Assembly: GCA_031841125.1 (NCBI GenBank)
Contig: CM063112.1
Span: 25,384,603-25,448,602, forward strand
Length of the DNA: 64,000 nucleotides
Source of the DNA: Acanthococcus lagerstroemiae
Taxonomy: Eukaryota > Arthropoda > Insecta > Hemiptera > Eriococcidae
Direction of reading: 5' to 3'
Shown here one piece after another: positions 2,896-60,639 of this stretch (position 1 is its first letter; every line of letters starts with the position of its first letter). The notes under the pieces were generated by a model. It ran no database searches and was not told the DNA's origin. It saw only the letters and a list, made by a program, of their open reading frames with translations. A program made the position numbers and the translations under genes.

Positions 2896-3036
2896 TCCAT
2901 CTCCTCGAGAATGATGCAGGGCATGAACGGGGCGCCGCCCTCAACGAATTTAGTGCATATAATACTGAAAGAAGCTGGTACCACAATCATCAGAAGTCAA
3001 GATGTAGGAGACACAGATTTTAAACTTTAGATTGTA

Positions 3037-3150: not shown

Positions 3151-3624
3151 GAAAACCAAAGTGCAAGACTATTAGCAGGGGTCTCCTGTGGCACCGGCGA
3201 GAAACCTCAGAGTAAAAGTCGGGCAAAGCAGGGGACCCCACATAACACTTGAAACTTGGAACTTGTAATTATTTACTGCTGTAAACTTAATGGAGCCACC
3301 CGGCAAGTTTGGGATTAGCCGCCCCGTAAGGAGAAAAAACAAGAAACAAGAAAAAAGTATCTTATGCAAAGGGGTCCAAGTACGGTAGGTTACCAACGTT
3401 GACGGCCTCTCACGATAGTTTGAAAGATTCAATTCAATTCGAACCCGTTCTCTTATAGAAACGAACTTTACAGCAATATTGTTACGCTGCAAGTGTCCCC
3501 GGCCCTTTAAGGGCAAAGGTGTATCTCACCCTCTCCCACTCTCCTCCATCTTGAGTTATTCTGTGATAGAATTTGTGTTGAAGGAAATGATTTATGTCAT
3601 CTACCCATTTCTCACGTTACCTTC

Positions 3625-3828
3625 GTTTCTCCTTTTCATGAAAGGAAAAGCCCAAAATGTCGTTTGGTGAGCCCATCTTTCGGACGGCATTCGGGCGATG
3701 TGCCCCTCCCAACCCCATTTTTGGTTCCTAATATGGACTATTGCGTTTTTGAGATTCGGGATTCTTTTTCTTAGAGTGTCGGTACTGATTTTTTCTATTT
3801 TTCTTACACCCAGGATAGACCTCAGCAT
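3625..3828 (-). pseudogene. RTE-type LINE reverse transcriptase tail fragment
   Basis: On the minus strand the frame reads ILGV then KWGWEGHIARMPSERW. This is the 'KW.WAGHIAR..D.RW' signature near the C-terminus of RTE-type endonuclease-reverse transcriptases common in insects. Palm and endonuclease domains are absent, so it is a short fragment. Several other RTE scraps in the window carry the same signature. Confidence 0.7.
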
Positions 3829-5039
3829 GACATTTTCCGGGGTACATGTCCGGGGCTGTACTGAATTACAATACCAAAGATAATAATTTACGTGTTAATT
3901 GGTTTTTGCAGGCTCAAGAAAAGAAATACAGGTTGTTATTGGGCGTTCGTAGTAGAATTGAGAGACTGGAAGTGATGTTTAAAGCTAAAGAATTATTGGG
4001 TGGAAAGAAGTGTTCCAGAGTAGAAACCTGGTTAATAATTCGGACCGGGCAGCGCTAGCGTCGCGTAATGTTTACGAGAAGTGATAAAGAGTTCTGTGAG
4101 GTTTCAATGGGTGAATTTATAGCAAGAACATTATCGGTTCTGTTCGAAAATTCGGGTTCATTTCCTCTGTTTTTTATTATTCTTCAATTATCTTCTTGAA
4201 TTTTGATTGTAAGCAACCATTGAAATCTTCGATTCGACAAGACAGAGTCAAAGTAGTGATTATAAAGATTATGATCTAGAATATTGTCCTCTTGAAGATA
4301 GTGAGTAATATTGTCCTTATAATATTTGTTTTAATACTGAAATAAAAAGGATGAGGGAATACAAGAGAAAATATAGAAAATAAACGAATTGAATAGAGAT
4401 ATAAGAAGAGAATGGTTTTTGGAAATATAATATTCCAGGAAAAATTATGAAAATAGATACAAACGATGAGAATTTTCTGAAACGTGAGGCGATGACGATA
4501 CCATGGTAATCGATCAAAAATTGTTTAAAAATGGAGAAACCCAATATCTCTTGAAAACTAGGCAGAATGAGAGGAAATTTGATGAAAATTGATACAAAAG
4601 AAATTTATAAATTGTCTTAATGCGTAATCAGGAGAAAATAATCTATTGTTGCTTAGAAAATATTTAAATTTTCACTACGCGAATTCGGTTGATAATTTTT
4701 TTTTTAGATTCTGAAAATTGATTAAAAAATTGAAAAATTTGTGATTGCGCAAGACTGCGCCAGAATAAAAATCTCCCTCTATATAAAACTGTAGAAAACT
4801 TGAAAAATGTAGGAAGTTAATGGAAAATTGACACAAACATTTAAAAATTTTATGACTTGACTTTATGAAAAATTTAGAGAAAATGGTCTCATTTTGATTT
4901 AAAAATTGACAAATATTATGCGTCAAAACTTCACAAATTTACAAGATATTTAAAAGTGATGAAAAGTTGAGGAAAAATTGAGAAATCTCTAAGACTGCGC
5001 CGGAACATACATGTTACCTCTACTATTACTCAATAACAA
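3829..5039. other. AT-rich sequence with a short duplicated motif, no gene seen
   Basis: No supported coding region. The phrase AAGACTGCGCCRGAA followed by a YCTCTA pyrimidine stretch occurs twice, near 4749 and 4990, about 240 bp apart. This suggests a diverged tandem unit. Confidence 0.4.
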
Positions 5040-5445
5040 TAGAAAAATTTGTATTAAAAAAAATAATAATAAATGTAAAATAAATGTAATGCAAAATGCC
5101 ATGGAAAGGTCTATGCTAGCAATGAAATTGAAAGACAGAGTTAGAAATAACATAAAAAGAAAAATTTTAAAGAATTCGAACTCCATGTATGTTGCACCCG
5201 TCGTAAAAAGTGGGATTGGGCTGGTCATATTTCAAGGCTAAAAGATGATCGATGGACTTACAAAATAAAAAACTAGTATCTCAAATCAGGACGAAAACAG
5301 GGCCGACAGAAAACTAGATGGAAAGATGACATTGAAAACTTTTTGGGCAATAGACTATATCATAGAGTGGCTGATGACAGGCTAGAATGGACAAGGCTGA
5401 GGGAGGCTTATGCCCAATTTTACGGGCCTAATGTAAGACACTGTA
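5040..5445 (+). pseudogene. RTE-type LINE reverse transcriptase C-terminus
   Basis: Joined across frames this reads MERSMLAMKLKDRVRN, then KWDWAGHISRLKDDRWTYKI, then GRKQGRQKTRWKDDIENF, and finally WTRLREAYAQFYGPNV. That order (DRVRN, W-AGH-R, GRP-RW-DDI, W--L-EAYAQ) is the standard RTE ORF tail. One frameshift lies near 5240. The 5' part is missing, as usual for LINE insertions. Confidence 0.8.
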
Positions 5446-6640
5446 AGTATTAAATATAAGAATACATACTGTATAAATGATAATTAGCACATGAAGCTTG
5501 TTGGATGAATGAATTAGAAATCGAGGAGGTCAAGGCAGAGGAACTGTCATTATTAACATCACTCCACTCTGTTCGCTAGACTTTCTTGCAGGGGAAAGAC
5601 GAAACTTATTATGCAGTTTCCAGACACAGTGACCTAATACTCGTAATTCATTAATTAATAGTCAGTTATCGAAAAAAACAAGATTTTGTGACACTTTTTT
5701 GCCTCCAGGGCTTAGTAGCGCATAAATGTGCTCGAACTTTCAGTGTATTGTTTAGTCCTGTTATATCCAATCCTGTATATGTATATTCAACTTTCCAACA
5801 ATACTTTCAGAAATAATTGTACCCGACTAAGAAGTCTGGAAACGCCTCGCGAATGAGACAGTTATGTTCTCGTTATTTTCTTCGCCTACTTTTCCACAAC
5901 AGCCTACGCGTAAAAATCTAAAATAGAAAAACCAGATATTCTTACGCGATTCAGCCATCCTAAAAGTTAAACTTTTTCATTCCTTTCTACTTCGTAACCA
6001 GACGAATGATTGTTAATTTATAAAAAAAGTTCCTTCGATTCTGTTAAGTGCTCGAGGAGGAAGGAAAAAAAACAGAGGAAAAAAAACACTAAGCACCAGA
6101 AAATAATCTTCAAAAACATTGAATGAATTATTCAGTAGCTGTTACTTCACCAGACTAAAAATAAAACTTAATGCTGCCTTTGAGATCCGTTGTAGTGAAT
6201 CGAGCGATAAGCTTTCCGCTGCAATGAAATACATCTTTTTATTCTCATTATTTACTTAGTCAACTGTATATATTTATTCGGCGGGCTAAACGTCTTATAA
6301 AATTAAGAATTTTTATGACGTTCAGCAGCTGAAATAAGGACGAGATCGTTTGTGTATTACAAATGACGTAACAACACGAATTCCATCGAGGGTTCCCGCG
6401 TCCAAAATCATTTACGTATCGTTAAATAATACGACGACGTTTTATGCTGTATTTAATTTCGTTTTACGTTTTCCCTTTGTTTTTTTTGTGTGTTTTTTTT
6501 TTCATTTTCTCCTTCGTTTCATTAGGGAGGTCAAGCTAAAAGAAAAAACTGACTGGAATTTTCTTTTTTAATAAAGGAATATTTTGGTAGATTCCCCATA
6601 ACGGGCTTCTTATAAAATCGTCAAAGTACGTTCGTGTTCC
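5446..6640. other. Unassigned AT-rich sequence
   Basis: Open frames here are short and composition-driven (for example a poly-T-encoded Phe-rich frame at 6350-6571). I see no domains, repeats or RNA genes I can support. Confidence 0.4.
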
Positions 6641-7000
6641 GATAGAATAATAATAATAGCGTTTATTTAATACAACATATCGTAGTTTTTATAAGTACAA
6701 TTTATAACAGAAATCAATTCTTTCGCGTCGTGTTAGCCCTTTTGTTGGGCGAACGCCTCCCTCAACCTTGCCCAATCGTCAGCGGCAAATTTGTGGAATA
6801 AGCGATGTTTCAGCAATTTGTTTATGTCCTCTGACCACTCAGACTTCTGCTTTCTCCTCCCCAATATTACCAAACAGTTACTTTTTTTCGCCCACCTACT
6901 ATTCATCAGTCTGCTCAGATATCTGCCAGTCCCATTTTATTCTTTTTACCAAGTAAAGTATGTTGTATTTTCCCAAAAATTTTTCCTTGATTTTTTTAAA
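6640..7000 (-). pseudogene. 3' end of an RTE-type LINE with (ATT)n tail
   Basis: On the minus strand, frame-shifted pieces read VTVWYWGGE, KHRLFHKF, then ADDWARLREAFAQQKG and stop. A ~100-bp 3' UTR follows, ending in an ATT microsatellite at about 6645-6656. RTE elements typically terminate in such microsatellites. The copy points opposite to the RTE fragments at 5.0 and 7.5 kb, so it is a separate insertion. Confidence 0.75.
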
Positions 7001-7469
7001 TTTTAATTTTATCCATAAGTTTCAGACCTAACATAGCTTGTTGTATAATCTTCTGATGTTTTTTGAATTGTTGAATAATGACTCGTATGTATACATATTT
7101 ATAATCAGATGTTTTAAAGTGTTGTGTTAGTTGCGTTAAACCCAGTGGGCGGATTGTAAATAGCGCTGCTAACCGAAATTTTAAAAATTCCCTAAAGTAG
7201 CTAAAATTCTTTTGGTAAAAATTCCTTAAAATTCCGTAACTTTTTTCTTCTTTCTTTTTCTTACTGATAACGGTGCAAATCATGCAAATGACCAAATGGT
7301 GTCACTTAGAACGTTACTTTACACCTAATTCTGATTTTATAAAAATAAAAGAAGAATAAAGCCGTTCTAGACGCAAAAGAGAAAGGTCCTAACATAATTG
7401 TACAGAAAGTCTTTTTTCGCAGGCAAACACTGAATATAGGCGGGAAACTTTGCGAAAGAATTTTTTACC
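7001..7469. other. Unassigned spacer
   Basis: AT-rich sequence between two RTE fragments. No supported gene or repeat. Confidence 0.35.
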
Positions 7470-41580: not shown

Positions 41581-43682
41581 ATGCAGGTACGGTGTTTTTA
41601 CCAGAACGTTCGGGGACTCAGAACCAAACTCAATAATTTTAAGTTAAATGTTCTCGCAAACAACTACGATGTTATCGTGATTACCGAGACGTGGCTACAA
41701 GAAGACATCCATACCTACGAAATATTTGATAATACATACAGAGTCTTTCGGAAGGACAGAAATTTAGGGGCAGTAGGAAAAACTACAGGAGGTGGAGTAA
41801 TGGTAGCGGTGAGAAATAATTTCATAGCAGAGAGAATATCCTGGTTAGAAACACCAAACAATGCTTACGAACAGGTATGGGTAAAGATAAAACCGCTAAA
41901 CAGAAGTACTTCAGTTTATGTCGGAGCTTTTTACTTTCCTCCAGTCTCAGAACAAGAACATTATGCAGAAATTTACAAAACGATAACACGACACAGCATC
42001 TCAGTAGAAAATTTAATACTGATCGGCGACTTTAATCTGCCTCAGATTGTCGACGATGACGGTTCTCCCGTTAGCTGCGTCTCAATGAACGAAAATAAAA
42101 TTCAAGACCTGAACAACTTTATGCACTTCCATAACCTAGTCTCGTACAACAGGGTCCCTAATAAATATGGCAAAACTTTAGACCTAGTCCTGAGCAATAT
42201 CACGTCTTTAACGGTCAATCTAGGTCATCCCTTGTCAACACCTTCCGATAGCTATCACCCTCCTTTGGAAATAGATTTATCACTCGCTCGAATTTTTCAT
42301 AAGATGAACACCCCCCCACACCTCCAGTCGCTTCTCCAGCCTATAACTTCGCCAAAGCAGACTTCTTTAACATGTATCTGCTGTTGAAAGAGACACCCTG
42401 GGAAGAATTGTATGAAATTACTGACAGCAATGAAGCCGCGAGCTATTATCAAAAAGCGCTACACGATATTATAAAGAGAACCGTTCCCCTTAGAACCTAT
42501 CGAAAAAAAATCAACTATCCTTCTTGGTTCTCAAAAGAAATAATCAATAATCTTAGAATAAAAGGGAAATTGCACTCTAAATTTAAGAAAACACAATGTC
42601 CCAGTGTACATCAACAGTTCGCCATGTGCAGGAAAGAAACTAAGAAGTTAATCAAAGAGGCATGGGAGAGGCATAGTCGTAATGTAGAAGGACTACTCAA
42701 ATCCAACCCGTCACAGTTCTGGAGATACGCAAATAACTCGCGTAAAAATATGGGCTCAAACACTACTAGCATTGAGTTTAAAGGGCAAATACTTAGCTCA
42801 CCGAATGAAATCTCAGAGGCTTTTGCCTCAAAGTTCCTCGCTGATGAGGAACTCACTACCAATCAGAAACTACAAACGAGTTTAACCCGTGCTTCAAATT
42901 TAAATTTAACTTTAAATCTAAATACTGTGCATATTAAAACTGTCACTGTAGACGAAGTGAAAGGTGTCATGGGCTCCCTGAAACCTAAACTATCAAGCGG
43001 ACCAGACGGTATCCCATCATACATTTTTAAGGCTTGTAAAGATCTCTTAGCTCCGCCGTTGACACATATTTTCAATATCTCCCTTCTAAACTCGCAATTC
43101 CCTGAAACATGGAAAATATCTAAAGTAATACCAGTGCCTAAAAATGACAACAGGAAAGACTTGACTAATTACCGGCCCATATCCCTTATACCTGCCTCAG
43201 CTAAAATATTTGAAACTGTGGTTTATAATAAGCTTTATCCAAAGATAAAAAACTACTTGGTTTCTTCTCAACATGGTTTTATGGAAGGCAGATCTGTCCA
43301 GACCAACTTAATTCAATTTACTCAATACGTCCTGAAAGCCCTCGATCAAAGAACACAAGTAGACGTTATATATACAGATTTCAGTAAAGCCTTTGATAAA
43401 GTACACCATCGTATACTCATAACAAGAATGCAAGAGCTTGGCTTTTCGACAAATTTGGTTAGCTTTTTCAACTCGTATTTGGGAAATAGGAAACAGTTTA
43501 ACTCGTTCAGAGGAGCCGAGTCTACATACTTTGACTGTACCTCGGGGGTACCACAAGGATCCATTTTGGGGCCCTTATTATTCTTGATATTTATCAACTC
43601 TGCCGCAACGGTCCTCCGCGATTCAGAAATTCTGCTCTATGCAGACGATATTAAAATTTTCAGACAAATAAAATCAGCTGCG
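41581..43682 (+). pseudogene. Jockey/CR1-type ORF2, N-terminal part (endonuclease and most of the RT palm)
   Basis: The ATG at 41581 opens MQVRCFYQNVRGLRTKL. Endonuclease blocks VIVITETWLQ, TGGGVMVAV, LILIGDFNLP and SDSYHPPLEI follow. A +1 shift at a run of seven C (42311-42317) moves the frame, after which it stays open. RT motifs are SGPDGIPSYIFK, YRPISLIPASAKIFE, GFMEGRSVQTN, VIYTDFSKAFDKVHH, GVPQGSILGPLLFLIF and LLYADDIKIF (YADD). The frame meets the palindrome after K-S-A-A. The downstream residues encoded up to 44003 are palindrome sequence, not LINE. Confidence 0.9.
43677..43682. repeat. Left 6-bp target-site duplication (GCTGCG)
   Basis: In frame as Ala-Ala codons of the LINE. Identical to 59824-59829. 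Confidence 0.93.
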
Positions 43683-43849
43683 AGTAGAGTAAAAGTGGGG
43701 CGGCTGGCGCAGGTCTCCCGTGTATTTTTAAATGGAGTGACGTCACAGTCGATGCTAAAAGCCCTGGTTCCCCTGCAAACCTTGAGTATGCAATCCGCGT
43801 ACTGTATTCGAAGAAAATTTCGTCTCTCTCGACGCGTTGGTGATTGTAT

Positions 43850-46130
43850 ACGTCGTATAGATATGGGTCGGTACTTACCGTGTGATGAACAGTGGACCCA
43901 TCAGCAGCCCCCTCCCCTCCCTATGGTTGAACCGAGTGTATTTTTGCGTACATTAATAATTGGAATACAAATTGCATCAGACTCTTGGTCTTGGAAATGG
44001 TAGACGCAGGCGTCGTATATGGATAGGCACTTGGGTAGGTACTTATCGTGTGATGAAGAGTGGACCCGTTTACTGCCCCCTCCCCTCCCTCACGCTTGAT
44101 TAGAATTTATTTTCGTAACTTTCATCTCTCTCAAAGTATAGGTTACTAGTTGTGTTGTATATGGGATACTTACGGCGTGGATATGTCAGTATAGGTAAAT
44201 GGGTAGGTTAGAAAAAGGTTCACGACCCAGACTCCGGGGAAACTACAATCCAGAGTGTCCCTCGTCTTCCCCCCTTGATCCAGATGTCCAGGTTCGTGAT
44301 TGAAATCGACTAGTTGTGTCGTATGTATGATGATGATAGTATGCAGATAAATAGGTATGTTAGAAAGAGGTCCGTTTCCCAGACTCTAGGGAAACTACAA
44401 TTCAGAGTGCCCCTCCCTCCCCCTCCTCATCCCCCCTTGTTGAGTCGGTTCAGATTTTCACGCTCCGCGGTTGAAGCGAGTATACTTTTGTATATAATTG
44501 CCAGCCATGACCCCAGACCCCTCTTCTCCCCATTATCCACACAATCCAGTTTCCCACACATGGTGGAGCCTGTATCTTTGTATATAATAATAATAATAAT
44601 AATTGGAATATGAAATATAACACATATGGCGGTAAGAGTGAAAAAAAGTGTCTGTTTGTCTCCTACCCTGAGGGAACCACAGATTACAGCTCCCATCCCT
44701 TCCCTTGTGATTGAACCTATATTTTCGGGTATAATAATAATTGGAATATGGAATATATCACGGCCAAAGGTAGGCTGCAGGAACTATGATGGTGAGAGGG
44801 GGAAAAATGGAAGGGAAGGTTTGTCTATGCCCCCTATCTTGAGTCCGAGAGTACCACAACCCAACCCCCTCCCCTCCTCTGCGGATGAACCTGTATTTTC
44901 GATATAATAATTGGAATATGAAATATATAACACATGGTGGCTACAGGGAGAAAGGGAATATTTACCTACGTCTCTGTCCCGAAGGTACCACAACCCAGCC
45001 CCCTCTCCCTCTCCTCATCATACCAACACTCGAAAAGAGGTCGTTTCACGAATCGAAGTATTAGGAGAGTATGAATTATTCGCAGGTCTTTCTTTCCTAC
45101 CAAACTTTAGATGAGTCATCAAAAAAAAAAAATTATTAAATATCGAAATTCCAGACAGGTCTAAACTTGACGCGCTCTTATCGGGAAGATATTTTCGCAC
45201 GTTGCGACGACTGAGTCGTCGGTGGCTGTACAGAAAAAATATATCTATACATATGGCGTATTGTGTTTATTGCATCATCCTAATTAATTCTCTTTGTGCT
45301 TTACCAATCCGTAGGTGAAATAGTACGATAATATGTAGTTTGGATGTGTCAATTCGCGTTATAAATTATTAGATTTTCGAATCTGTCTTATCAAAAAGTG
45401 AAAATTATCTCCAGCCTGGATTGAAACATTATTCGGCGCGGCGCGCTTTTAGCTTCGAATCTTTATCGCTGAATATTTTCCAACATATATCGGGGGTTGT
45501 TTGGATATTTTTTTTTGAAACTCTCACTTAGCCCCAGTTCAACCAGTCGTGTAGATATGAGGAAATTTGATGTCCGAGCATAAAGTGTAGTATAGTGTAG
45601 CTGAAGCTACTGACTCCCTGGTGTAAACAGGAGGTTATACGAGTCGCTGAACATTTTCCAATACATATGGTGGATGCTCAGGTATTTTTGAAACTTTCAT
45701 TTAGTCCCAGTTTGACCAGTCGTGTAGAAATGAGGAAAACACTTGTTCGAATATGAAGAGTATAATATAGTATAACATAGGCAGGTCCCCGATGTAAACA
45801 GGAGATTCGAACCCCGACTCTGTGTACCACAATTCACATACGCAACAAGATGTTCCAGCCCCCTCCCCTTCCATTTCCTAAGAAATCTTCGCTTTATCTG
45901 TTTGTGTTCTAAGAATTTGTGTGTATCTGTATGCCCAGGTGCATGTATTAGATGGTTGTGAGAATGGAAAAACGAATATTTGTCTCCAGACCCCTATGTA
46001 CCACAATCTAAATACCCAACAAAATGTTCCAATCCCTCCCTCTCCCCATCTCTCAAGAAATCGTTGTTTTATCTGTTTATGTTCTAAAAACGCGTGTATT
46101 CCTGCATGATGATGGAGAAAATGGTTGCAG
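43850..46130 (+). repeat. Diverged ~140-185-bp tandem monomers, outer left arm
   Basis: Recurring order: GTCGTATAxxGATA, a GGGTAGGT-type phrase, ACxACAATyCAGAG followed by CCCCCTCCCCTCC, then TTGAxCCxxxTATTTTxGTATA and AATAATTGGAATA. I see units starting near 43850, 44014, 44150, 44311, 44480, 44620, 44750 and 44925, with outliers at 45780 and 45960. Some units encode chance frames of 60-100 codons, which I do not consider genes. Confidence 0.75.
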
Positions 46131-46243
46131 AAATGGAATATGAAGTATAAAGTAACGGTAAAGTGACACTATAATTCTCATAACATATGTAGGCAACTAA
46201 AGGTTACAAAGAAAAAAAGATGCTCTTGGTTAATTTACAGTTT

Positions 46244-46248
<5 letters not shown>

Positions 46249-46279
<31 letters not shown>
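46249..46279 (+). repeat. (GT)n microsatellite, left arm (mirror 57387-57418)
   Basis: About 15 GT units, with the same length class in both arms. Fast-mutating microsatellites rarely stay equal in independent copies, so this supports recent homogenisation. Confidence 0.9.
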
Positions 46280-46283
<4 letters not shown>

Positions 46284-46699
46284 TTATTGATATAAAATAA
46301 TGGTAAAAACAGGAGTAACTTAATATCTCGTGTAAACTGTGTAGGTACATTATGAAAATACCCTATAACCTAATGGTAATGTAATTTATGTAAATAATGC
46401 GTGTTTCGGGTAATTTATCACTCATTTCTCAGTACAAAGAGTAGTAAGTTGGAATATTTGCCTTGATTCGAGTCAGTAGAGTTAATTATCATTGAAATTG
46501 TAACTAAAATGATAAAAAGTGTGGAAAAATAGGTAAAATTTGATATTTTCTGAATAAATTGTCGGTTTTTGTGGTAAATTGCGGTCTGGTAGATGATTTG
46601 AGGAACAGAGTAACTGGTTAATTCTAGCTGGTAAAGTTAATATCTGTTGACAAAATAGCTAAAACGAGAAAAAGTGTAGAAAAAAAAAGAAGGGAATTT

Positions 46700-47880
46700 G
46701 AATATATTGCAAAAGTGCACTGTCAGGTGTGTACTGTATATATTACACACGAAAAGGAAAAAAGGGCAATGTTTGTTCCCTGATCTAGAGCCCCCTCGGG
46801 AAGTCTTAGTATACATGGAATGTGTGTAAAATGTGTTGATTTGTTGATAAATTCTGTAGGCTGTGTGTTTGTTAGATGTTTTGAGGAGTAGAATAACTGG
46901 ATTATTTACTAATAATTATACCCAGTATAGCCAGTGTCTGGTGGAAAATATAGCTAAAACGAGAAAAAGTGAAGAAGAAAAAAAAAATTTGAATTATAAA
47001 TTAGCATGAGTCTGTACTGCCAGGTGTATGTCAGAGCCTGTAGATTATATGGGAGAGGGGAAAAGAGAATGTCTGTTCAATAGCCCGTATGTACCACAAT
47101 TCAGAGCCCCTCGAGAAGTTTCGAAATGCGTGAAAAGAGTGAATAGTGTGTGAAATGTGTTAATTTCTGGATCCATTGTTGGTATTCGAGTTGATTTCTA
47201 TGTGATAGCTGATTCAAGGAGTAAAGGGACTAGATTAGTTATTTTATATTTTTCGAATAAATTGTTGGTTTTCGAGTTGGTTCATGTCTGAGAGATGATT
47301 CGAGGAGGAGATGGTCTGGATTATTTACTAATAATTATACCCAGTATAGCCAATGTCCAGTGGGAAATGTAGCTAAAACGGGAAAAAGTGGAGGGAATAA
47401 AATGAATTTGAATATTATGTTATCATGAGTAAGTGCTGTCAGGTGTATGTCAGAGCCTATAGATTATATGGGAGAGTGAAAAAGAGAATGTTTGTCCCCT
47501 GTTGTCTACGCTTCATGATTCAGAGCCCTCTGAAGAAGTTTTGAAATGAGTGTAAAATGTGTCAGTTTCAGAATAAATGTTGTAGATAGTAGGTTTGTGG
47601 TACATGATTCAAGGAGTAGAGTGTCTGGTTTATTTATTAATGATAAAAAATTAATTGGAACACATGAGGAGTCTGTACTGTCTCGTGCGTGAAGAGGATG
47701 TACGTATAGATTACACAAGGAGTGAAAAGGGAAATGTCTGTCCCATACCCACTGTGTACCACAATCTAGAACTCCCTCAAGAGGTGTTGAAATGAGTAAA
47801 AAGTGTGAAATTTGTCGATGACTGAGTAAAGAATGGGTTTCCAAATTTGGTTTCAGTTTAGTAGATGGTGGAAGGAGTAG
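46700..47880 (+). repeat. Second block of diverged repeats, left arm (mirror at about 55785-56970)
   Basis: Four units near 46720, 47020, 47440 and 47690 share TGYCAGGTGTRTRY, a GGGARxGxAAAARxGxAATGTYTGT phrase, TGTACCACAATyyAGAGCCCyCTCrAGAAGT and GCTAAAACGrGAAAAAGTG. Spacing is irregular (250-420 bp). The shared ACCACAAT/CCCCTC phrase links them to the terminal monomers. Confidence 0.65.
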
Positions 47881-50610
47881 AAGTCTACAATACTTGCTAA
47901 TGAATCACACCAGTAGAGCAATCTGTTATTAGAAGTAGAAAATAATAGTTTGATTGGAGCTCTCAGGTATTAGGAAAAAGTCGTGTTCTTAGATGTTAAA
48001 ATATTCAAAGTTAACGCAATTGCATACTATTAAAGTTGAAGGGGTAAGAAGAAAAAAGAGAAGGAAAAAAAAAAGGAATGATATTATTGTCTAACTGGGA
48101 GACTCAGGGGTGTAGTAACAAGTGATATAAAAACATAAGAATAACATACGTATTTATTTGAAACAGCGAACCGGATTTGAAAAGACAGAGGGGGAGAGGA
48201 AGAGAAAAGATTGAAAACAATAAGATTTTATATTCGCGGAAGTTAGTTACCAGGGAGATTAGGACAATGCAAAATTGTCAGTTTTCTGAAGATTATGATG
48301 AAGTGGTACAGGATAGGTGGGTATTGTTAGAGGGGATGAGGGAACAGTTATAGTTCTTACAGGAACTGGAAGTTGGGAAAGAAGGTTAATCTCCGACACT
48401 AAAAGCAAACAAATCTAATTCAAAGTGTGGGAAAAGTGTGGATAGTAGCAGAAAGGGGGGAATTTGGAAATGTTGATATTATAGAAAATCCCAAGTCTAT
48501 CGGGAAAATGTGAACTGTGTAGGTAGGTAGATGAGCATGGTTAATTTCTTATATTTTTACTCTGTTATTTGTAATAGGTATAACCATCTATATGGCTATC
48601 AGTTGGCTGTCTAGTCTATTCAGTGTATCCTTCCACAATTAAACGATAAAATTTGAAAATAGACATAAAATTGATTGAAAAGTACGTAAAGAGGTACCCA
48701 GGTATAAAGTATTCTGTATTTATCTGTTTATTTAGCTACTTTTATGCATCAAGAGTTTGTTTTCGAGTTGGTTTTTGTCAGTCAGTCCCCTAATGTGTAG
48801 TGGGACTTTTATCATTGTTGAAAATTGTGGGAAAATGGACAATAAATGAAACAAGTTAGTTAGAGAGGGAGGGGTAAAGAGAAAGTTTCAGGATATATTT
48901 ACCAAGGGAATGTAGCAAAAGTATGTTAATTTGTCGAAAAACTGACAGAAAATTGTTTTAAAATGGAATATGTAGCATTTTGATATCGGTATGCGTTCTG
49001 TTAATAAGCCTCTGTACATTTAAAAGGTCAGATTATTCGTAAATGGTCGGGAAAATGTGTAGGTAAGGTATGGTGTACTCCTGTTTCAGGTGAAAAGGTA
49101 GCCAAGTTGAAAAATTATTATTGAATTTCAGTTCGATACAAAGGGGATAATTCTACTATTTTTTCGAGTATAATGTGTTCAAATCAAAATTGTACCCCTC
49201 TTACCCGTTGTCACCTATGTGTATAGGTTATTCTGTAACCTGTTTATTACAGATTTGATACATGGTATGGGGGGGAAACATGAAAAAGAGAAAGAAATAT
49301 ACACATCTAGATGGCTTCTTATCAAAAATTTGCTAAGTTGTAGAAAAATAGTCAAAACTGGCAAAAAATGGATAAATCTCAAATATTTAGTGTTTTTCTG
49401 TATCACATTATTCTGTTAAGAGAGGAGTAGGTATATACTTGTGTATACCATGTAATAGGCTACCTAGACACCCTTGTTATTTACAAATAGCCAGTCAGCC
49501 AGTCAGTTGAGGAGAGAAAAATATTAATAAAGAGAAAATAGGCTCGAATATTGGGTTATCTATACTTATACCTGTAGATTATTATAAAACCTGGATGTTT
49601 TGTCTTTGATATACAATTCAGTGAGATGAGTAAACGAAATAGTCAGGTGTATAATATTATGTATCTACCATCTTGGTTGGAAAATGAAAATTAATCGAGT
49701 TGATAAATTTAACAATTTCAAAGTAGGTAATGTTTGATATAAATGTTGTCATAATGGAATATGGTTGAAAATTAGGATGATCTGTTATCCAAGATATTCA
49801 ACAAATAATCGCTGCTATACTACAAACCGTGTATTTAGGTTATTGTGTACCAGTTACATAAAAAAAAATACAGTAGGGTAGAGAAAGAAAATGGAAAGGG
49901 GTAAGAGATAATATCTACATGTGTGAGGAAATCAACTAAAATCTGATTGGTTGAATTCAAGTAGTACAGAGGTGATGTTCTGAGAGCCAGAAATTTCTAG
50001 AAGATCGGAATTCTCAAACTTTGGTGAAGTAATGATTACTTTTTCTTGGAATTAGGTAGGTATTATTTATATTGTATTTATTATCTATTGTGTTGTATAA
50101 TTACTATATAGACTGGTAGGTCAGGAGAATTGGAATAGAGGTTTCATAAATAATCAGGGAAGGTAGGTATTAATTTGACTGAGAAATGGGTAAAATTAGG
50201 GAAAACACTAGTTGAATCTGACTAAAAGTGCTCTAAATTTGAATGCTATTTTTTTTTTTTTTTTTGTTAGAGGTGAAACAGATAATGGAGGAGAAGAAGT
50301 TGTACCTATGTTACTAGGATAGTATAATGAGTTAAAAAGTTTTGAAAGGGTAGACATATAGTAGAAAAAGAGCAAAGAGTGGCTTCCCCTCCATGTCTCC
50401 CAATGAAGAGAAAATAAACAAAGAAAAAATAGTCAAAATACTGTTGTACACAACGTATATTTACAATAAATACGACATCTTCATCTTATATGTATAGGAA
50501 TATACCACTTAATCTATTTCATAAGGGCAAATGTAGTACATGCTTAGGTATAAGTATATCATTAGCCTGTTAAATAGTCGCTTCTCTATACAAATCAGAC
50601 ATCTATTTAT
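47881..50610. other. Non-coding AT-rich part of the left arm (mirror 53056-55786)
   Basis: No frame above ~66 codons and no recognised motif. Purine-rich on this strand. If genes exist here they must be multi-exon with very small exons, or RNA genes. Confidence 0.4.
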
Positions 50611-51351
50611 CTAATCATAAAAATGGTTTCTATGGTGAAACGAGTCGAGAAAACTGGATTTTATAGTCTTGACTGTATTAATTATTTTGGATTTTGCAAA
50701 AACTTTCAATTCTGCAAAAATTTGTTGACATATGATGGCATCTAAATTCGCGCATAGAATGTGTACATTATCTAGTTCTGGAAGATGCTCAATTTCTATA
50801 CCGTACAAAGAGTCAACATTACCTTCTATGCTCGACTTTTGTAAAAAATAGTTCACAATCCTGGAAAACAGGTACTTTGTATATAGCTGGTATTTGAGAA
50901 GCAGTTCCAGTTTCAGGGAAATTACTTCATAATTGGTTATCAGCTCAGTATATGAGGTAGTATCAAAATGAATTATTACGTCATCTTGATCAAATACACC
51001 GATGCTGTTTGTTGATTGGTCCAATTTTAGCGAATATTTGCCAATATTAATGACCATATTCAAATTTACAGAAGGTAGTAGGGCTTCTTGTAAATCAGGT
51101 CGGCTGTCGGGGTAATCATATCCCCCTCTTCCTGATGCAAGATGCAGCAAATCATAAATATGTTTTCGATGTTTTTTAGCAAATGAAAACCATTGTGTCA
51201 CTGATAATTCCATTTTCTTCGAACATCCTTCTTTTCCTAAGTTGAATATTTGAAGTACTGGTTGGAAGCTGTTATTCGGGTCTATTCCAATATGGATGAA
51301 AAATTTGCTTTTCTTTGCTCCTATGATGTCTGATTGAAGCAACAGTTCCAT
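50611..51351 (-). CDS. Palindrome gene, left copy, 246 aa, unknown function
   Basis: The ATG at 51351 (context GACAATGG) gives MELLLQSDIIGAKKSKFF. The same frame is open 35 codons further upstream without an ATG (through ..IKIVLYILILARINN..), so an upstream exon is possible. The product is mixed alpha/beta, 246 aa, with no signal peptide in the ATG version. Residues about 15-70 (SKFFIHIGID, then QPVLQIF, then MELSVTQWFSFAKKH) have a strand-strand-'LTxxQW'-helix order that loosely recalls PC4-type ssDNA-binding cofactors. I regard this as a hint only. No Polinton core protein is recognised. It matches the right copy residue for residue and is transcribed away from the centre. Confidence 0.65.
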   Translation of the reverse strand: MELLLQSDIIGAKKSKFFIHIGIDPNNSFQPVLQIFNLGKEGCSKKMELSVTQWFSFAKKHRKHIYDLLHLASGRGGYDYPDSRPDLQEALLPSVNLNMVINIGKYSLKLDQSTNSIGVFDQDDVIIHFDTTSYTELITNYEVISLKLELLLKYQLYTKYLFSRIVNYFLQKSSIEGNVDSLYGIEIEHLPELDNVHILCANLDAIICQQIFAELKVFAKSKIINTVKTIKSSFLDSFHHRNHFYD

Positions 51352-51808
51352 TGTCACAACTTCACTATTATTAATACGCGCAAGTATGAGTATGTAAAGC
51401 ACTATTTTGATCAGGTAGCTAAAAGAAACGTCCGACCCAAACCAAGAACTACACAACTATGAAGAAAATTTGGAAATTTCTGGTACCTAATATATATAAA
51501 TATTACTCGTATTTTTCACTCTACCTCTCACCAATCAGATAATTTTTATATTATATTACCTTCTTTTCAGTCTCTGTCTAATTAAATTTATGAACATATT
51601 TGTAATAAGTATAGGTAAAACTCAGGAAATCCAAATTTTTTGGGTTAAAACCATATTTTTGGGTAAAAATGCCCACTTTTTCCATGTTTCAGTTATATTT
51701 AAACAATTTATAGATTAATTCTACTATTCTTATATATTTATGGAATATTTATACTAAATTGCTAAATTAAAAAATATCTCATTTTATCGATTTTTCACGT
51801 TAGGTTCA

Positions 51809-51857
51809 GCTGCTACGCTTTGCAGTGCAAAGCGTAGTAGCTATGTGTGTTTAAATG
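51809..51857. other. 49-bp asymmetric centre with its own hairpin
   Basis: 51809-51841 is a second, smaller palindrome: a 16-bp stem (one mismatch) around a single G at 51825, containing CTACGCTTTGCA. Its axis (51825) is 8 bp left of the axis of the large palindrome (51833). 51842-51857 (TATGTGTGTTTAAATG) is unpaired. As single strand the whole element could form an 8-kb hairpin with this structure as its loop. Confidence 0.9.
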
Positions 51858-52314
51858 TGAACCTAACGTGAAAAATCGATAAAATGAGATATTTTTTAAT
51901 TTAGCAATTTAGTATAAATATTCCATAAATATATAAGAATAGTAGAATTAATCTATAAATTGTTTAAATATAACTGAAACATGGAAAAAGTGGGCATTTT
52001 TACCCAAAAATATGGTTTTAACCCAAAAAATTTGGATTTCCTGAGTTTTACCTATACTTATTACAAATATGTTCATAAATTTAATTAGACAGAGACTGAA
52101 AAGAAGGTAATATAATATAAAAATTATCTGATTGGTGAGAGGTAGAGTGAAAAATACGAGTAATATTTATATATATTAGGTACCAGAAATTTCCAAATTT
52201 TCTTCATAGTTGTGTAGTTCTTGGTTTGGGTCGGACGTTTCTTTTAGCTACCTGATCAAAATAGTGCTTTACATACTCATACTTGCGCGTATTAATAATA
52301 GTGAAGTTGTGACA

Positions 52315-53055
52315 ATGGAACTGTTGCTTCAATCAGACATCATAGGAGCAAAGAAAAGCAAATTTTTCATCCATATTGGAATAGACCCGAATAACAGCTT
52401 CCAACCAGTACTTCAAATATTCAACTTAGGAAAAGAAGGATGTTCGAAGAAAATGGAATTATCAGTGACACAATGGTTTTCATTTGCTAAAAAACATCGA
52501 AAACATATTTATGATTTGCTGCATCTTGCATCAGGAAGAGGGGGATATGATTACCCCGACAGCCGACCTGATTTACAAGAAGCCCTACTACCTTCTGTAA
52601 ATTTGAATATGGTCATTAATATTGGCAAATATTCGCTAAAATTGGACCAATCAACAAACAGCATCGGTGTATTTGATCAAGATGACGTAATAATTCATTT
52701 TGATACTACCTCATATACTGAGCTGATAACCAATTATGAAGTAATTTCCCTGAAACTGGAACTGCTTCTCAAATACCAGCTATATACAAAGTACCTGTTT
52801 TCCAGGATTGTGAACTATTTTTTACAAAAGTCGAGCATAGAAGGTAATGTTGACTCTTTGTACGGTATAGAAATTGAGCATCTTCCAGAACTAGATAATG
52901 TACACATTCTATGCGCGAATTTAGATGCCATCATATGTCAACAAATTTTTGCAGAATTGAAAGTTTTTGCAAAATCCAAAATAATTAATACAGTCAAGAC
53001 TATAAAATCCAGTTTTCTCGACTCGTTTCACCATAGAAACCATTTTTATGATTAG
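52315..53055 (+). CDS. Palindrome gene, right copy, 246 aa, unknown function
   Basis: Mirror copy of 50611-51351 with an identical predicted protein: MELLLQSDII at the start, FHHRNHFYD at the end. The two copies are head to head with start codons 963 bp apart, so the centre should contain a bidirectional promoter region. Both frames are intact while nearly everything else in the arms is non-coding. This suggests either recent origin or maintained function. Confidence 0.65.
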   Translation: MELLLQSDIIGAKKSKFFIHIGIDPNNSFQPVLQIFNLGKEGCSKKMELSVTQWFSFAKKHRKHIYDLLHLASGRGGYDYPDSRPDLQEALLPSVNLNMVINIGKYSLKLDQSTNSIGVFDQDDVIIHFDTTSYTELITNYEVISLKLELLLKYQLYTKYLFSRIVNYFLQKSSIEGNVDSLYGIEIEHLPELDNVHILCANLDAIICQQIFAELKVFAKSKIINTVKTIKSSFLDSFHHRNHFYD

Positions 53056-56000
53056 ATAAATAGATGTCTGATTTGTATAGAGAAGCGACTATTTAACAGG
53101 CTAATGATATACTTATACCTAAGCATGTACTACATTTGCCCTTATGAAATAGATTAAGTGGTATATTCCTATACATATAAGATGAAGATGTCGTATTTAT
53201 TGTAAATATACGTTGTGTACAACAGTATTTTGACTATTTTTTCTTTGTTTATTTTCTCTTCATTGGGAGACATGGAGGGGAAGCCACTCTTTGCTCTTTT
53301 TCTACTATATGTCTACCCTTTCAAAACTTTTTAACTCATTATACTATCCTAGTAACATAGGTACAACTTCTTCTCCTCCATTATCTGTTTCACCTCTAAC
53401 AAAAAAAAAAAAAAAAATAGCATTCAAATTTAGAGCACTTTTAGTCAGATTCAACTAGTGTTTTCCCTAATTTTACCCATTTCTCAGTCAAATTAATACC
53501 TACCTTCCCTGATTATTTATGAAACCTCTATTCCAATTCTCCTGACCTACCAGTCTATATAGTAATTATACAACACAATAGATAATAAATACAATATAAA
53601 TAATACCTACCTAATTCCAAGAAAAAGTAATCATTACTTCACCAAAGTTTGAGAATTCCGATCTTCTAGAAATTTCTGGCTCTCAGAACATCACCTCTGT
53701 ACTACTTGAATTCAACCAATCAGATTTTAGTTGATTTCCTCACACATGTAGATATTATCTCTTACCCCTTTCCATTTTCTTTCTCTACCCTACTGTATTT
53801 TTTTTTATGTAACTGGTACACAATAACCTAAATACACGGTTTGTAGTATAGCAGCGATTATTTGTTGAATATCTTGGATAACAGATCATCCTAATTTTCA
53901 ACCATATTCCATTATGACAACATTTATATCAAACATTACCTACTTTGAAATTGTTAAATTTATCAACTCGATTAATTTTCATTTTCCAACCAAGATGGTA
54001 GATACATAATATTATACACCTGACTATTTCGTTTACTCATCTCACTGAATTGTATATCAAAGACAAAACATCCAGGTTTTATAATAATCTACAGGTATAA
54101 GTATAGATAACCCAATATTCGAGCCTATTTTCTCTTTATTAATATTTTTCTCTCCTCAACTGACTGGCTGACTGGCTATTTGTAAATAACAAGGGTGTCT
54201 AGGTAGCCTATTACATGGTATACACAAGTATATACCTACTCCTCTCTTAACAGAATAATGTGATACAGAAAAACACTAAATATTTGAGATTTATCCATTT
54301 TTTGCCAGTTTTGACTATTTTTCTACAACTTAGCAAATTTTTGATAAGAAGCCATCTAGATGTGTATATTTCTTTCTCTTTTTCATGTTTCCCCCCCATA
54401 CCATGTATCAAATCTGTAATAAACAGGTTACAGAATAACCTATACACATAGGTGACAACGGGTAAGAGGGGTACAATTTTGATTTGAACACATTATACTC
54501 GAAAAAATAGTAGAATTATCCCCTTTGTATCGAACTGAAATTCAATAATAATTTTTCAACTTGGCTACCTTTTCACCTGAAACAGGAGTACACCATACCT
54601 TACCTACACATTTTCCCGACCATTTACGAATAATCTGACCTTTTAAATGTACAGAGGCTTATTAACAGAACGCATACCGATATCAAAATGCTACATATTC
54701 CATTTTAAAACAATTTTCTGTCAGTTTTTCGACAAATTAACATACTTTTGCTACATTCCCTTGGTAAATATATCCTGAAACTTTCTCTTTACCCCTCCCT
54801 CTCTAACTAACTTGTTTCATTTATTGTCCATTTTCCCACAATTTTCAACAATGATAAAAGTCCCACTACACATTAGGGGACTGACTGACAAAAACCAACT
54901 CGAAAACAAACTCTTGATGCATAAAAGTAGCTAAATAAACAGATAAATACAGAATACTTTATACCTGGGTACCTCTTTACGTACTTTTCAATCAATTTTA
55001 TGTCTATTTTCAAATTTTATCGTTTAATTGTGGAAGGATACACTGAATAGACTAGACAGCCAACTGATAGCCATATAGATGGTTATACCTATTACAAATA
55101 ACAGAGTAAAAATATAAGAAATTAACCATGCTCATCTACCTACCTACACAGTTCACATTTTCCCGATAGACTTGGGATTTTCTATAATATCAACATTTCC
55201 AAATTCCCCCCTTTCTGCTACTATCCACACTTTTCCCACACTTTGAATTAGATTTGTTTGCTTTTAGTGTCGGAGATTAACCTTCTTTCCCAACTTCCAG
55301 TTCCTGTAAGAACTATAACTGTTCCCTCATCCCCTCTAACAATACCCACCTATCCTGTACCCACTTCATCATAATCTTCAGAAAACTGACAATTTTGCAT
55401 TGTCCTAATCTCCCTGGTAACTAACTTCCGCGAATATAAAATCTTATTGTTTTCAATCTTTTCTCTTCCTCTCCCCCTCTGTCTTTTCAAATCCGGTTCG
55501 CTGTTTCAAATAAATACGTATGTTATTCTTATGTTTTTATATCACTTGTTACTACACCCCTGAGTCTCCCAGTTAGACAATAATATCATTCCTTTTTTTT
55601 TTCCTTCTCTTTTTTCTTCTTACCCCTTCAACTTTAATAGTATGCAATTGCGTTAACTTTGAATATTTTAACATCTAAGAACACGACTTTTTCCTAATAC
55701 CTGAGAGCTCCAATCAAACTATTATTTTCTACTTCTAATAACAGATTGCTCTACTGGTGTGATTCATTAGCAAGTATTGTAGACTTCTACTCCTTCCACC
55801 ATCTACTAAACTGAAACCAAATTTGGAAACCCATTCTTTACTCAGTCATCGACAAATTTCACACTTTTTACTCATTTCAACACCTCTTGAGGGAGTTCTA
55901 GATTGTGGTACACAGTGGGTATGGGACAGACATTTCCCTTTTCACTCCTTGTGTAATCTATACGTACATCCTCTTCACGCACGAGACAGTACAGACTCCT

Positions 56001-57385
56001 CATGTGTTCCAATTAATTTTTTATCATTAATAAATAAACCAGACACTCTACTCCTTGAATCATGTACCACAAACCTACTATCTACAACATTTATTCTGAA
56101 ACTGACACATTTTACACTCATTTCAAAACTTCTTCAGAGGGCTCTGAATCATGAAGCGTAGACAACAGGGGACAAACATTCTCTTTTTCACTCTCCCATA
56201 TAATCTATAGGCTCTGACATACACCTGACAGCACTTACTCATGATAACATAATATTCAAATTCATTTTATTCCCTCCACTTTTTCCCGTTTTAGCTACAT
56301 TTCCCACTGGACATTGGCTATACTGGGTATAATTATTAGTAAATAATCCAGACCATCTCCTCCTCGAATCATCTCTCAGACATGAACCAACTCGAAAACC
56401 AACAATTTATTCGAAAAATATAAAATAACTAATCTAGTCCCTTTACTCCTTGAATCAGCTATCACATAGAAATCAACTCGAATACCAACAATGGATCCAG
56501 AAATTAACACATTTCACACACTATTCACTCTTTTCACGCATTTCGAAACTTCTCGAGGGGCTCTGAATTGTGGTACATACGGGCTATTGAACAGACATTC
56601 TCTTTTCCCCTCTCCCATATAATCTACAGGCTCTGACATACACCTGGCAGTACAGACTCATGCTAATTTATAATTCAAATTTTTTTTTTTTCTTCTTCAC
56701 TTTTTCTCGTTTTAGCTATATTTTCCACCAGACACTGGCTATACTGGGTATAATTATTAGTAAATAATCCAGTTATTCTACTCCTCAAAACATCTAACAA
56801 ACACACAGCCTACAGAATTTATCAACAAATCAACACATTTTACACACATTCCATGTATACTAAGACTTCCCGAGGGGGCTCTAGATCAGGGAACAAACAT
56901 TGCCCTTTTTTCCTTTTCGTGTGTAATATATACAGTACACACCTGACAGTGCACTTTTGCAATATATTCAAATTCCCTTCTTTTTTTTTCTACACTTTTT
57001 CTCGTTTTAGCTATTTTGTCAACAGATATTAACTTTACCAGCTAGAATTAACCAGTTACTCTGTTCCTCAAATCATCTACCAGACCGCAATTTACCACAA
57101 AAACCGACAATTTATTCAGAAAATATCAAATTTTACCTATTTTTCCACACTTTTTATCATTTTAGTTACAATTTCAATGATAATTAACTCTACTGACTCG
57201 AATCAAGGCAAATATTCCAACTTACTACTCTTTGTACTGAGAAATGAGTGATAAATTACCCGAAACACGCATTATTTACATAAATTACATTACCATTAGG
57301 TTATAGGGTATTTTCATAATGTACCTACACAGTTTACACGAGATATTAAGTTACTCCTGTTTTTACCATTATTTTATATCAATAA

Positions 57386-57423
<38 letters not shown>

Positions 57424-57534
57424 AAACTGTAAATTAACCAAGAGCATCTTTTTTTCTTTGTAACCTTTAGTTGCCTACATATGTTATGAGAATTATAGTG
57501 TCACTTTACCGTTACTTTATACTTCATATTCCAT

Positions 57535-59690
57535 TTCTGCAACCATTTTCTCCATCATCATGCAGGAATACACGCGTTTTTAGAACATAAACAGATAAAA
57601 CAACGATTTCTTGAGAGATGGGGAGAGGGAGGGATTGGAACATTTTGTTGGGTATTTAGATTGTGGTACATAGGGGTCTGGAGACAAATATTCGTTTTTC
57701 CATTCTCACAACCATCTAATACATGCACCTGGGCATACAGATACACACAAATTCTTAGAACACAAACAGATAAAGCGAAGATTTCTTAGGAAATGGAAGG
57801 GGAGGGGGCTGGAACATCTTGTTGCGTATGTGAATTGTGGTACACAGAGTCGGGGTTCGAATCTCCTGTTTACATCGGGGACCTGCCTATGTTATACTAT
57901 ATTATACTCTTCATATTCGAACAAGTGTTTTCCTCATTTCTACACGACTGGTCAAACTGGGACTAAATGAAAGTTTCAAAAATACCTGAGCATCCACCAT
58001 ATGTATTGGAAAATGTTCAGCGACTCGTATAACCTCCTGTTTACACCAGGGAGTCAGTAGCTTCAGCTACACTATACTACACTTTATGCTCGGACATCAA
58101 ATTTCCTCATATCTACACGACTGGTTGAACTGGGGCTAAGTGAGAGTTTCAAAAAAAAATATCCAAACAACCCCCGATATATGTTGGAAAATATTCAGCG
58201 ATAAAGATTCGAAGCTAAAAGCGCGCCGCGCCGAATAATGTTTCAATCCAGGCTGGAGATAATTTTCACTTTTTGATAAGACAGATTCGAAAATCTAATA
58301 ATTTATAACGCGAATTGACACATCCAAACTACATATTATCGTACTATTTCACCTACGGATTGGTAAAGCACAAAGAGAATTAATTAGGATGATGCAATAA
58401 ACACAATACGCCATATGTATAGATATATTTTTTCTGTACAGCCACCGACGACTCAGTCGTCGCAACGTGCGAAAATATCTTCCCGATAAGAGCGCGTCAA
58501 GTTTAGACCTGTCTGGAATTTCGATATTTAATAATTTTTTTTTTTTGATGACTCATCTAAAGTTTGGTAGGAAAGAAAGACCTGCGAATAATTCATACTC
58601 TCCTAATACTTCGATTCGTGAAACGACCTCTTTTCGAGTGTTGGTATGATGAGGAGAGGGAGAGGGGGCTGGGTTGTGGTACCTTCGGGACAGAGACGTA
58701 GGTAAATATTCCCTTTCTCCCTGTAGCCACCATGTGTTATATATTTCATATTCCAATTATTATATCGAAAATACAGGTTCATCCGCAGAGGAGGGGAGGG
58801 GGTTGGGTTGTGGTACTCTCGGACTCAAGATAGGGGGCATAGACAAACCTTCCCTTCCATTTTTCCCCCTCTCACCATCATAGTTCCTGCAGCCTACCTT
58901 TGGCCGTGATATATTCCATATTCCAATTATTATTATACCCGAAAATATAGGTTCAATCACAAGGGAAGGGATGGGAGCTGTAATCTGTGGTTCCCTCAGG
59001 GTAGGAGACAAACAGACACTTTTTTTCACTCTTACCGCCATATGTGTTATATTTCATATTCCAATTATTATTATTATTATTATATACAAAGATACAGGCT
59101 CCACCATGTGTGGGAAACTGGATTGTGTGGATAATGGGGAGAAGAGGGGTCTGGGGTCATGGCTGGCAATTATATACAAAAGTATACTCGCTTCAACCGC
59201 GGAGCGTGAAAATCTGAACCGACTCAACAAGGGGGGATGAGGAGGGGGAGGGAGGGGCACTCTGAATTGTAGTTTCCCTAGAGTCTGGGAAACGGACCTC
59301 TTTCTAACATACCTATTTATCTGCATACTATCATCATCATACATACGACACAACTAGTCGATTTCAATCACGAACCTGGACATCTGGATCAAGGGGGGAA
59401 GACGAGGGACACTCTGGATTGTAGTTTCCCCGGAGTCTGGGTTGTGAACCTTTTTCTAACCTACCCATTTACCTATACTGACATATCGACGCCATAAGTA
59501 TCCCATATACAACACAACTAGTAACCTATACTTTGAGAGAGATGAAAGTTACAAAAATAAATTCTAATCAAGCGTGAGGGAGGGGAGGGGGCAGTAAACG
59601 GGTCCACTCTTCATCACACGATAAGTACATACCTAGTCATACACGATGCAGATGGAAATCAACCGAGCGAAACACGAGAGAGACGAAATT
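57535..59690 (-). repeat. Diverged tandem monomers, outer right arm
   Basis: Mirror of 43850-46130 with one monomer fewer next to the tip. Confidence 0.75.
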
Positions 59691-59823
59691 TTCTTCGAAT
59701 ACAGTACGCGGATTGCATACTCAAGGTTTGCAGGGGAACCAGGGCTTTTAGCATCGACTGTGACGTCACTCCATTTAAAAATACACGGGAGACCTGTGCC
59801 AGCCGCCCTATTTTTACTCTACT

Positions 59824-59829
59824 GCTGCG
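59824..59829. repeat. Right 6-bp target-site duplication (GCTGCG)
   Basis: Identical to 43677-43682. Followed directly by GACTGCGATCTC, which continues the LINE codons. Confidence 0.93.
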
Positions 59830-60639
59830 GACTGCGATCTCTTACAACAAGATATAAATCGACTAGCCACTTGGAGTCAACAAAACGGACTACCGTTCAA
59901 TCTGAGCAAATGCGAAAAAATTACATTCAGAAGAATACTAAATAGAATCGAGCATGACTATCATATAGATGGAGCCACGTTACGGGAAGTTGACAGGGTG
60001 AGGGATTTGGGGGGGATTCTAGATGCAAAACTTACGTATAAGGACCACCTATCTAACATCGCATTGAAATCAAACAAAACGGTGGGTTTTATAATCAGGA
60101 GTGGACGAAATTACATTGATGTTGATACGCTCAAAGTACTATATTTCTCACTTGTGAGATCCCATTTAGAATTTGCGTCATTAGTCTGGAACCCAACAAC
60201 GCAAAAGGGAGTGAAATTGATAGAGAAAATCCAAAACCGTTTTCTGAAATACTTATACTTCAAACTATTCTCTTACTACCCTACTGATGTAAGCCACACA
60301 GAATTAAGAACAGGTTTCGGGGTCATCAGCCTAGAAAAACGCAGACTAATAACCTCCCAATTACTGCTATATGACATTGTTCATAGTAAAATATGCGATG
60401 AAAATCTACTGCGACAAATCTGCTTTCGGGTACCCTCGTTCCAAGCGCGATCAAAAGATCTATTCGAAACAATAACTGCCCACACAAATGGATACAGGGA
60501 GTCCGCTATGAATAGGGCGGCACGACTGTATAATAACATAGTATCTAAAAATCCCCACGTCGATATATTTTTCTTAAAACGTAATAATTTCAAAAATACA
60601 ATAACCAAAATCATAGCGGCTCCAAATTTTAAATTTTAA
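59824..60639 (+). pseudogene. Jockey/CR1-type ORF2, C-terminal part
   Basis: It begins with the duplicated GCTGCG and continues D-C-D-L-L-Q-Q-D-I-N-R-L. NLSKCEKITF, VRDLGGILDAKLTYKDH, LKVLYFSLVRSHLEFASLVWNP and the C-terminal domain to TKIIAAPNFKF and stop follow. This is exactly the continuation of the frame left at 43682. No stops are present. Confidence 0.9.

Follow-up and report, generated by a model that had tools for sequence, protein, structure and literature searches.

What kind of element is a palindrome of 16 kb, and how could a sequence that is inverted repeat from one tip to the other arise, spread and stay symmetrical? The locus that raises these questions lies in a 64,000-nucleotide stretch of Acanthococcus lagerstroemiae contig CM063112.1 (the window), at positions 43683..59823. 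A preliminary description had taken it for a Polinton-like insertion, and had proposed either a snap-back derivative or a distinct class of transposon moved by Polinton enzymes. We find that the element has Polinton tips, a 6-bp target-site duplication (TSD), multicopy spread and concertedly evolving arms. In our judgement it probably represents a snap-back Polinton satellite lineage that is non-autonomous, mobilised in trans and regenerated by fold-back synthesis. Both earlier proposals gain support and fit one after the other, the former as the origin and the latter as the lineage that was then moved in trans.

The element measures 16,141 bp, has AG...CT tips and is flanked by the duplication GCTGCG on the left (43677..43682) and on the right (59824..59829), all of which the sequence confirms as previously given. 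It splits a Jockey-like reverse-transcriptase open reading frame (ORF) on the + strand into a 5′ part (42372..43682; RVT_1, E=2e-26) and a 3′ part (59830..60639); in the empty site, with one GCTGCG retained, this frame is open for 706 aa. Self-alignment of the window yields one block of 15.6 kb that matches in inverted orientation (99.7% identity) and comprises a left arm running from tip to centre (43683..51824, + strand) and its mirror, the right arm (51826..59823, − strand). The two inverted arms of about 8 kb proposed earlier are thus present, but their identity is not uniform. Alignment of the 8.1-kb arms gives 25 substitutions, every one at most 542 bp from the tips, and a 141-bp indel and smaller indels also lie in these outer 542 bp. 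From there to about 50 bp off the centre the arms show no substitutions and three 1-2-bp indels, and one further mismatch falls in the central hairpin. The outer left zone (43683..44224) includes a terminal inverted repeat (TIR) of about 323 bp that is common to canonical Polintons, while the outer right zone (59443..59823) carries a terminal variant unlike the left one. The supposed 49-bp spacer does not hold up as such: it consists of a 33-nt hairpin (51809..51841; 16-bp stem, 1-nt centre at 51825, one G/A mismatch), which reads GCTGCTACGCTTTGCA-G-TGCAAAGCGTAGTAGC and is itself palindromic, and of 16 bp on one side (51842..51857), here called the hinge asymmetry. The window palindrome is therefore essentially without a unique centre. 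The overall reading of the preliminary description stands, although it overlooked this palindromic centre, the terminal asymmetry of the arms and a retained gene.

Genome searches were run on the 658-Mb assembly (438 contigs). Searching with the tips, for which 40 of 128 candidates were scored so that copy numbers are lower bounds, returned at least 40 matches, many of them facing pairs 15-20 kb apart. Autonomous relatives of the kind anticipated earlier, with PolB and integrase and the same tips, are indeed resident as potential helpers: four elements with the tips of the window element show the canonical Polinton layout (17.2-20.6 kb). Three of the four have TIRs of 372-378 bp, with 2-7 mismatches within an element, and the same three have 6-bp duplications; the roughly 323 bp of TIR that the window element has in common with resident Polintons are 81-88% identical. 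The canonical copy C5:28306671, the one of the four checked gene by gene against Pfam, encodes DNA_pol_B_2 (1174 aa), an rve integrase with a weak chromodomain match, an A32-like ATPase, a double jelly-roll capsid and a weak adenovirus-protease match; in the remaining three the PolB frames are split or contain stops. Other PolB genes in the assembly are 34-47% identical (39 of 666 candidates scored, so that counts are again lower bounds), and the genome therefore holds several Polinton lineages. In canonical elements E, J and F (L015/L016, L021/L022 and L026/L028), terminal variants are mostly common to both TIRs and differ between elements, so that TIRs too appear to be homogenised within elements.

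Each arm of the window element carries one gene, ORF246 (50611..51351, − strand, in the left arm; 52315..53055, + strand, in the right arm; 246 aa), and both genes are transcribed outward. When 15 proteins of resident Polintons were compared with the window arm by tblastn, the only significant match (E=3.5e-25) joined ORF246 to p233, a 233-aa protein of C5:28306671 that is 26% identical to it. PolB, integrase, ATPase, protease and capsid went undetected in this comparison, all other matches having E>=0.15. The earlier view that none of these five can be recognised is right, but it passed over ORF246. Since PolB and the rve integrase are undetected in the arm, we regard the element as a non-autonomous derivative and not as an autonomous Polinton. 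The predicted fold of ORF246 is PUR-alpha-like, with a structure match to adintovirus MOSUB, and shows paired beta-beta-beta-beta-alpha modules like those of solved PUR-alpha/PC4/Whirly-type members. On the strength of this model, its product is probably a single-strand DNA-binding protein serving strand-displacement replication. By sequence, the window protein had no Pfam match at E=1 (among alignment members, one row reached E=0.0054 and the rest stayed above 0.1), no match in PHROGs, phage records or viral contigs, and nothing convincing among PDB sequences. A protein search with ORF246 returned seven relatives, and one with the canonical 233-aa protein returned none. Degenerate relatives at 34-63% identity (C9:48298007-48305034, C4:144945 and C4:2864974) are possibly a lineage intermediate between the palindrome and canonical versions.

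The element is one of many. Seven palindromes were read from tip to tip: the window copy, C9:15959045, C6:13237681, C234:10651, C7:12881852 and C1:29003724, which make up the window family, and C3:957488, whose arms carry PolB. In six of the seven the arms are 99.84-99.95% identical, the outermost 351 bp of the window copy being disregarded, and C1:29003724 stands at 97.8%. Further copies that share these boundaries and have 6-bp duplications, whose existence the preliminary description had made a check on its reading, are thus found: six of the seven full-length palindromes (five of the window family and C3:957488) have an exact duplication of their own. Because the tips recur elsewhere, each with its own TSD, a chance palindrome is excluded. 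A protein search of the assembly with ORF246, in which all 85 candidates were scored, located the gene at 20 loci with at least 85% identity, as 17 head-to-head pairs and 3 single genes, and all 17 pairs have inverted repeats across their centre. The hinge asymmetry is kept in 16 of these 17 family centres, in either orientation (as 15 instead of 16 bp in C6:63985); the sole centre without it is the re-formed centre of C9:15967. The central base is G at C8:14583 (L045) and C2:40046 (L050), and C in other copies of the same orientation, which could be due to a mutation or to the hairpin having flipped with respect to the side that carries the 16 bp. Parvovirus flip/flop is a precedent for such a hairpin flip.

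Within a copy, the two arms evolve together. Among the six tip-to-tip family copies, four have arms that diverge from each other by 0-0.09% in substitutions; the figure is 0.32% for the window copy and 1.74% for C1:29003724 (centre C1:29011). Copies differ from one another by 1.4-2.4% (five copies, with C1 and the replaced C9 centre excluded) and from C1 by 1.7-2.6%. In the five copies other than C1:29011, 153 private substitutions occur on both arms and 5 on one. This count omits columns beyond position 7934 of the window copy (W, positions being counted along its arm), where the C9 centre is non-homologous. Including them gives 220 to 5, with 67 of the 220 lying beyond W 7934 and 65 of these coming from C9:15967, and a between-copy range of 1.4-3.2%. 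If the outer 1,000 columns are excluded as well, the count is 118 to 2. A 573-bp deletion that takes about the first 150 codons of ORF246 is likewise present in both arms of C1:55440. Over the inner 1.3 kb, compared in 15 of the 17 copies (all except C1:29011 and C1:55440), the arms differ at no site in ten copies, at 1 in one, at 2 in three and at 6 in C6:63534; private changes here number 20 shared by the arms and 12 on one arm, half of the latter in the relic C6:63534. In the two copies whose outer arms are unlike, arm substitutions are confined tipward, reaching 542 bp inward in the window copy and 4,670 bp in C1, with none from there to the hinge; C1 retains indels inward of its last arm substitutions. 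This polarity would fit synthesis that starts at the hinge and proceeds outward, plus late exchange with another molecule.

The suggestion of a snap-back is strengthened by two other palindromes, which are inverted Polinton PolB ends with fold-back hinges. C3:957488-974059 runs from tip to tip, its arm matches the PolB end of canonical Polintons at 98.8-98.9% over 6.8 kb, and both arms hold a complete PolB frame. Its hinge is compatible with a strand ...ACATAT-TTTCTATCGT-ATAT, whose 3′ ATAT paired with the ATAT upstream before the strand copied itself back (4-nt stem, 10-nt loop). The second, C2:32062613, has head-to-head PolB genes (46-47% identical), with stops on one side and the first half absent from the matches listed on the other. 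Arm identity in this palindrome is 99.7-99.8% across the roughly 4.5 kb that were compared, and at the hinge a stem of 5 nt closes a loop of 5 nt. Furthermore, the centre of C9:15967 has been replaced (L009 end/L010 start): after W 7934 the arm gives way first to a second copy of W 4308-4484 (180 bp) and then to an antisense piece of Polinton PolB (77 bp), and it turns back on itself at TCGCTT/AAGCGA, with a stem of 6 nt and a loop of 68 nt. An inverted end and a microhomology hinge, as snap-back predicts, thus occur in C3, C2:32062 and the re-formed C9:15967. All three junctions lie at inverted microhomologies of 4-6 nt, as expected from a nascent strand folding back and copying itself. In one canonical PolB half, 0.65%, 0.04% and 0.07% of positions, respectively, offer stems of this length with these loop sizes. 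Fold-back sites in general are common, since stems of at least 4 nt with any 3-100-nt loop were found at 39% of 1,500 sampled positions.

The C3 arm contains 1,119 bp (L017 7280-8398), with ORFs of 187 and 100 aa, that are not in the canonical copies compared. A captured insert is doubtful here, as one ORF crosses the edge into canonical sequence, and it is more likely that the canonical copies lost these 1,119 bp. At L036 (C9:41839888-41841900; 21-791 and on; tip C9:41839908), 771 bp of canonical Polinton capsid end are followed by family arm, and this chimera is a second sign of exchange between the family and the helper Polinton.

How might such elements form and persist? A protein-primed nascent strand, with its 5′ end at a Polinton tip, would halt within the element; its 3′ end would fold onto a short inverted microhomology and copy the strand's own length, producing a hairpin. 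The complement of this hairpin would be a palindrome with two intact tips, which could be replicated by Polinton PolB and inserted, in trans, by Polinton integrase. In later rounds, a growing strand that is already beyond the centre would fold back at the hinge and use its own first arm to finish the genome. Re-folding at the hinge would give a perfect palindrome in each cycle, with arms homogenised and the hinge asymmetry unchanged. We infer protein priming, self-priming, integrase action in trans and hinge-started re-synthesis from the patterns set out above.

Several points weigh against this reading. The replication route is reconstructed from integrated sequence and not from intermediates, and identical arms could also come from gene conversion in situ. 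The founding snap-back of the window family, and with it the founding junction, is untraceable because its arm and the resident Polintons share only the TIR and the 26%-identical gene. C1:29011 is without a TSD, its right tip being altered with about 21 bp lost. Three of the 20 ORF246 loci are single and not paired, and for four other tips with a family-type arm, 2.1-kb windows placed where the partner should lie contained no second tip. One of these four is the truncated palindrome C6:63534; another partnerless tip, C1:28455453, reaches only W 5855, with no centre in the 9 kb read. Finally, C8:13477399-13484048 (L025, C8:13476899-13484548, 501-7150) is a 6.65-kb Polinton insertion bracketed by the TSD ATTTTC, whose interior is a palindrome of 5 kb, made up of the PolB end together with about 76-80 bp of host flank that are mirrored as well. 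It is a chromosomal fold-back rearrangement after insertion, and we rejected it as a further clean palindrome because flanking host DNA is part of the mirror image and the TSD encloses the rearranged insertion as a whole. Chromosomal fold-back therefore also happens in this genome.

This last locus favours the idea that palindromes were first produced by inverted duplication in the chromosome (through folding back at a fork or annealing of single strands at inverted repeats), with some two-tipped products then moved by integrase. We think this improbable, since five of the six window-type tip-to-tip copies, and C3, stop exactly at their tips, with TSDs and unlike flanks, and since both other independent palindromes (C3 and C2:32062) derive from the PolB end and have short fold-back stems. 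Less easily set aside, if still unlikely in our view, is a snap-back origin in which arm identity is maintained by gene conversion between arms in the chromosome instead of re-synthesis at mobilisation. The arms of Y-chromosome palindromes are kept alike in this way. Conversion would explain why one-arm changes are few in many copies and absent from the inner 1.3 kb of 10 out of 15, and without it all five full-length copies would have to be very young despite their mutual divergence. The TIRs of canonical Polintons, moreover, are more unlike within an element. However, arms do diverge in situ in C6:63534, whose six substitutions in 1.3 kb are each private to one arm, and four further copies have arms differing at 1-2 sites. 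Conversion ought also sometimes to erase the hinge asymmetry, which is kept in 16 of 16 such centres, though the hinge may convert poorly.

Missed-adapter or mis-joined reads could in principle create palindromes, and those described here are known from assembled sequence alone. We nevertheless rejected an assembly artefact as very improbable: flanks are unlike and TSDs match; the palindrome occurs at 17 loci, 16 of them with the same type of centre; existing arm differences persist in the tips of W and in C1:29011; and copy-private variants stand on both arms. An unrelated cut-and-paste foldback transposon of the FB/Galileo type, similar at its tips by chance, would likewise have very long inverted repeats and few genes. 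It is hardly credible given the TIR in common with resident Polintons, the 6-bp TSD and the Polinton-family gene. Foldback and Galileo transposons belong to the P-superfamily (PMC3573991, PMC4168063), whereas the termini of the window element are those of a Polinton, and the two window arm ORFs tested gave no Pfam match.

Returning to the snap-back satellite, its closest counterparts apart from the foldback transposons are of three kinds. Yeast linear killer plasmids give rise to hairpin or inverted-dimer deletion derivatives, which resemble the window family as palindromic products of a protein-primed linear replicon, but are cytoplasmic and not integrated. Polintons/Mavericks (insect adintoviruses) share with it the AG...CT tips, the 6-bp TSD, the TIR and a homologous MOSUB-like gene, and canonical copies are co-resident; in the window element, by contrast, PolB, integrase, ATPase, protease and capsid are all undetected. 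The TIRs reported for intact vertebrate Mavericks, which also have 6-bp duplications, span 46-1,447 bp (mean 402; PMC8097293), whereas the window element is inverted repeat throughout. Snapback genomes of adeno-associated virus (AAV), as described in PMC8235507, are self-complementary molecules from one genome end, symmetric or asymmetric. They and other snap-back or copy-back defective genomes are thus built in a similar manner, but the AAV molecules are packaged parvovirus subgenomes, while the palindromes of the window family are integrated, occur in many copies and are related to an element that is protein-primed. Among titles and abstract openings, no published description of a palindromic or snap-back Polinton was found, which does not prove that none exists.

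Whether the family amounts to a novel class of mobile DNA, namely a palindromic satellite that regenerates itself and for which copying of half its length suffices, seems to us evenly balanced. If it does, any nascent strand extending past the hinge could restore the complete genome by means of its own arm, and the lineage would be old enough for about 26% protein identity to the helper homologue, retaining one dedicated gene for single-stranded DNA binding, two per element. Arms would be repaired whenever the element moves, and the age of an insertion could then be read from the divergence of its arms, as with long terminal repeats. To our knowledge, Polinton replication in animals has never been directly observed. 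The insertions resemble frozen by-products of replication, whose hinges would mark the points of nascent-strand fold-back, and arms that evolve in concert imply that the molecule finishes its own synthesis from a single arm. Protein-primed replication of Polintons by strand displacement would thereby become open to testing in an animal. The insertions would also supply an animal-genome counterpart of defective snap-back genomes and account for one source of giant near-perfect palindromes.

Two further properties of the window arms may be recorded. Positions 46000-50000 and 54000-58000, mostly non-coding and mid-arm, have a strong, mirrored GC skew (about +0.33). The skew, which reaches +0.43 in a window arm, was considered as a signature of replication and dropped, the AT skew being incompatible with cytosine deamination. 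Each arm also contains two direct sub-repeats of about 204 bp that are 84% identical (46874-47495 in the left arm).

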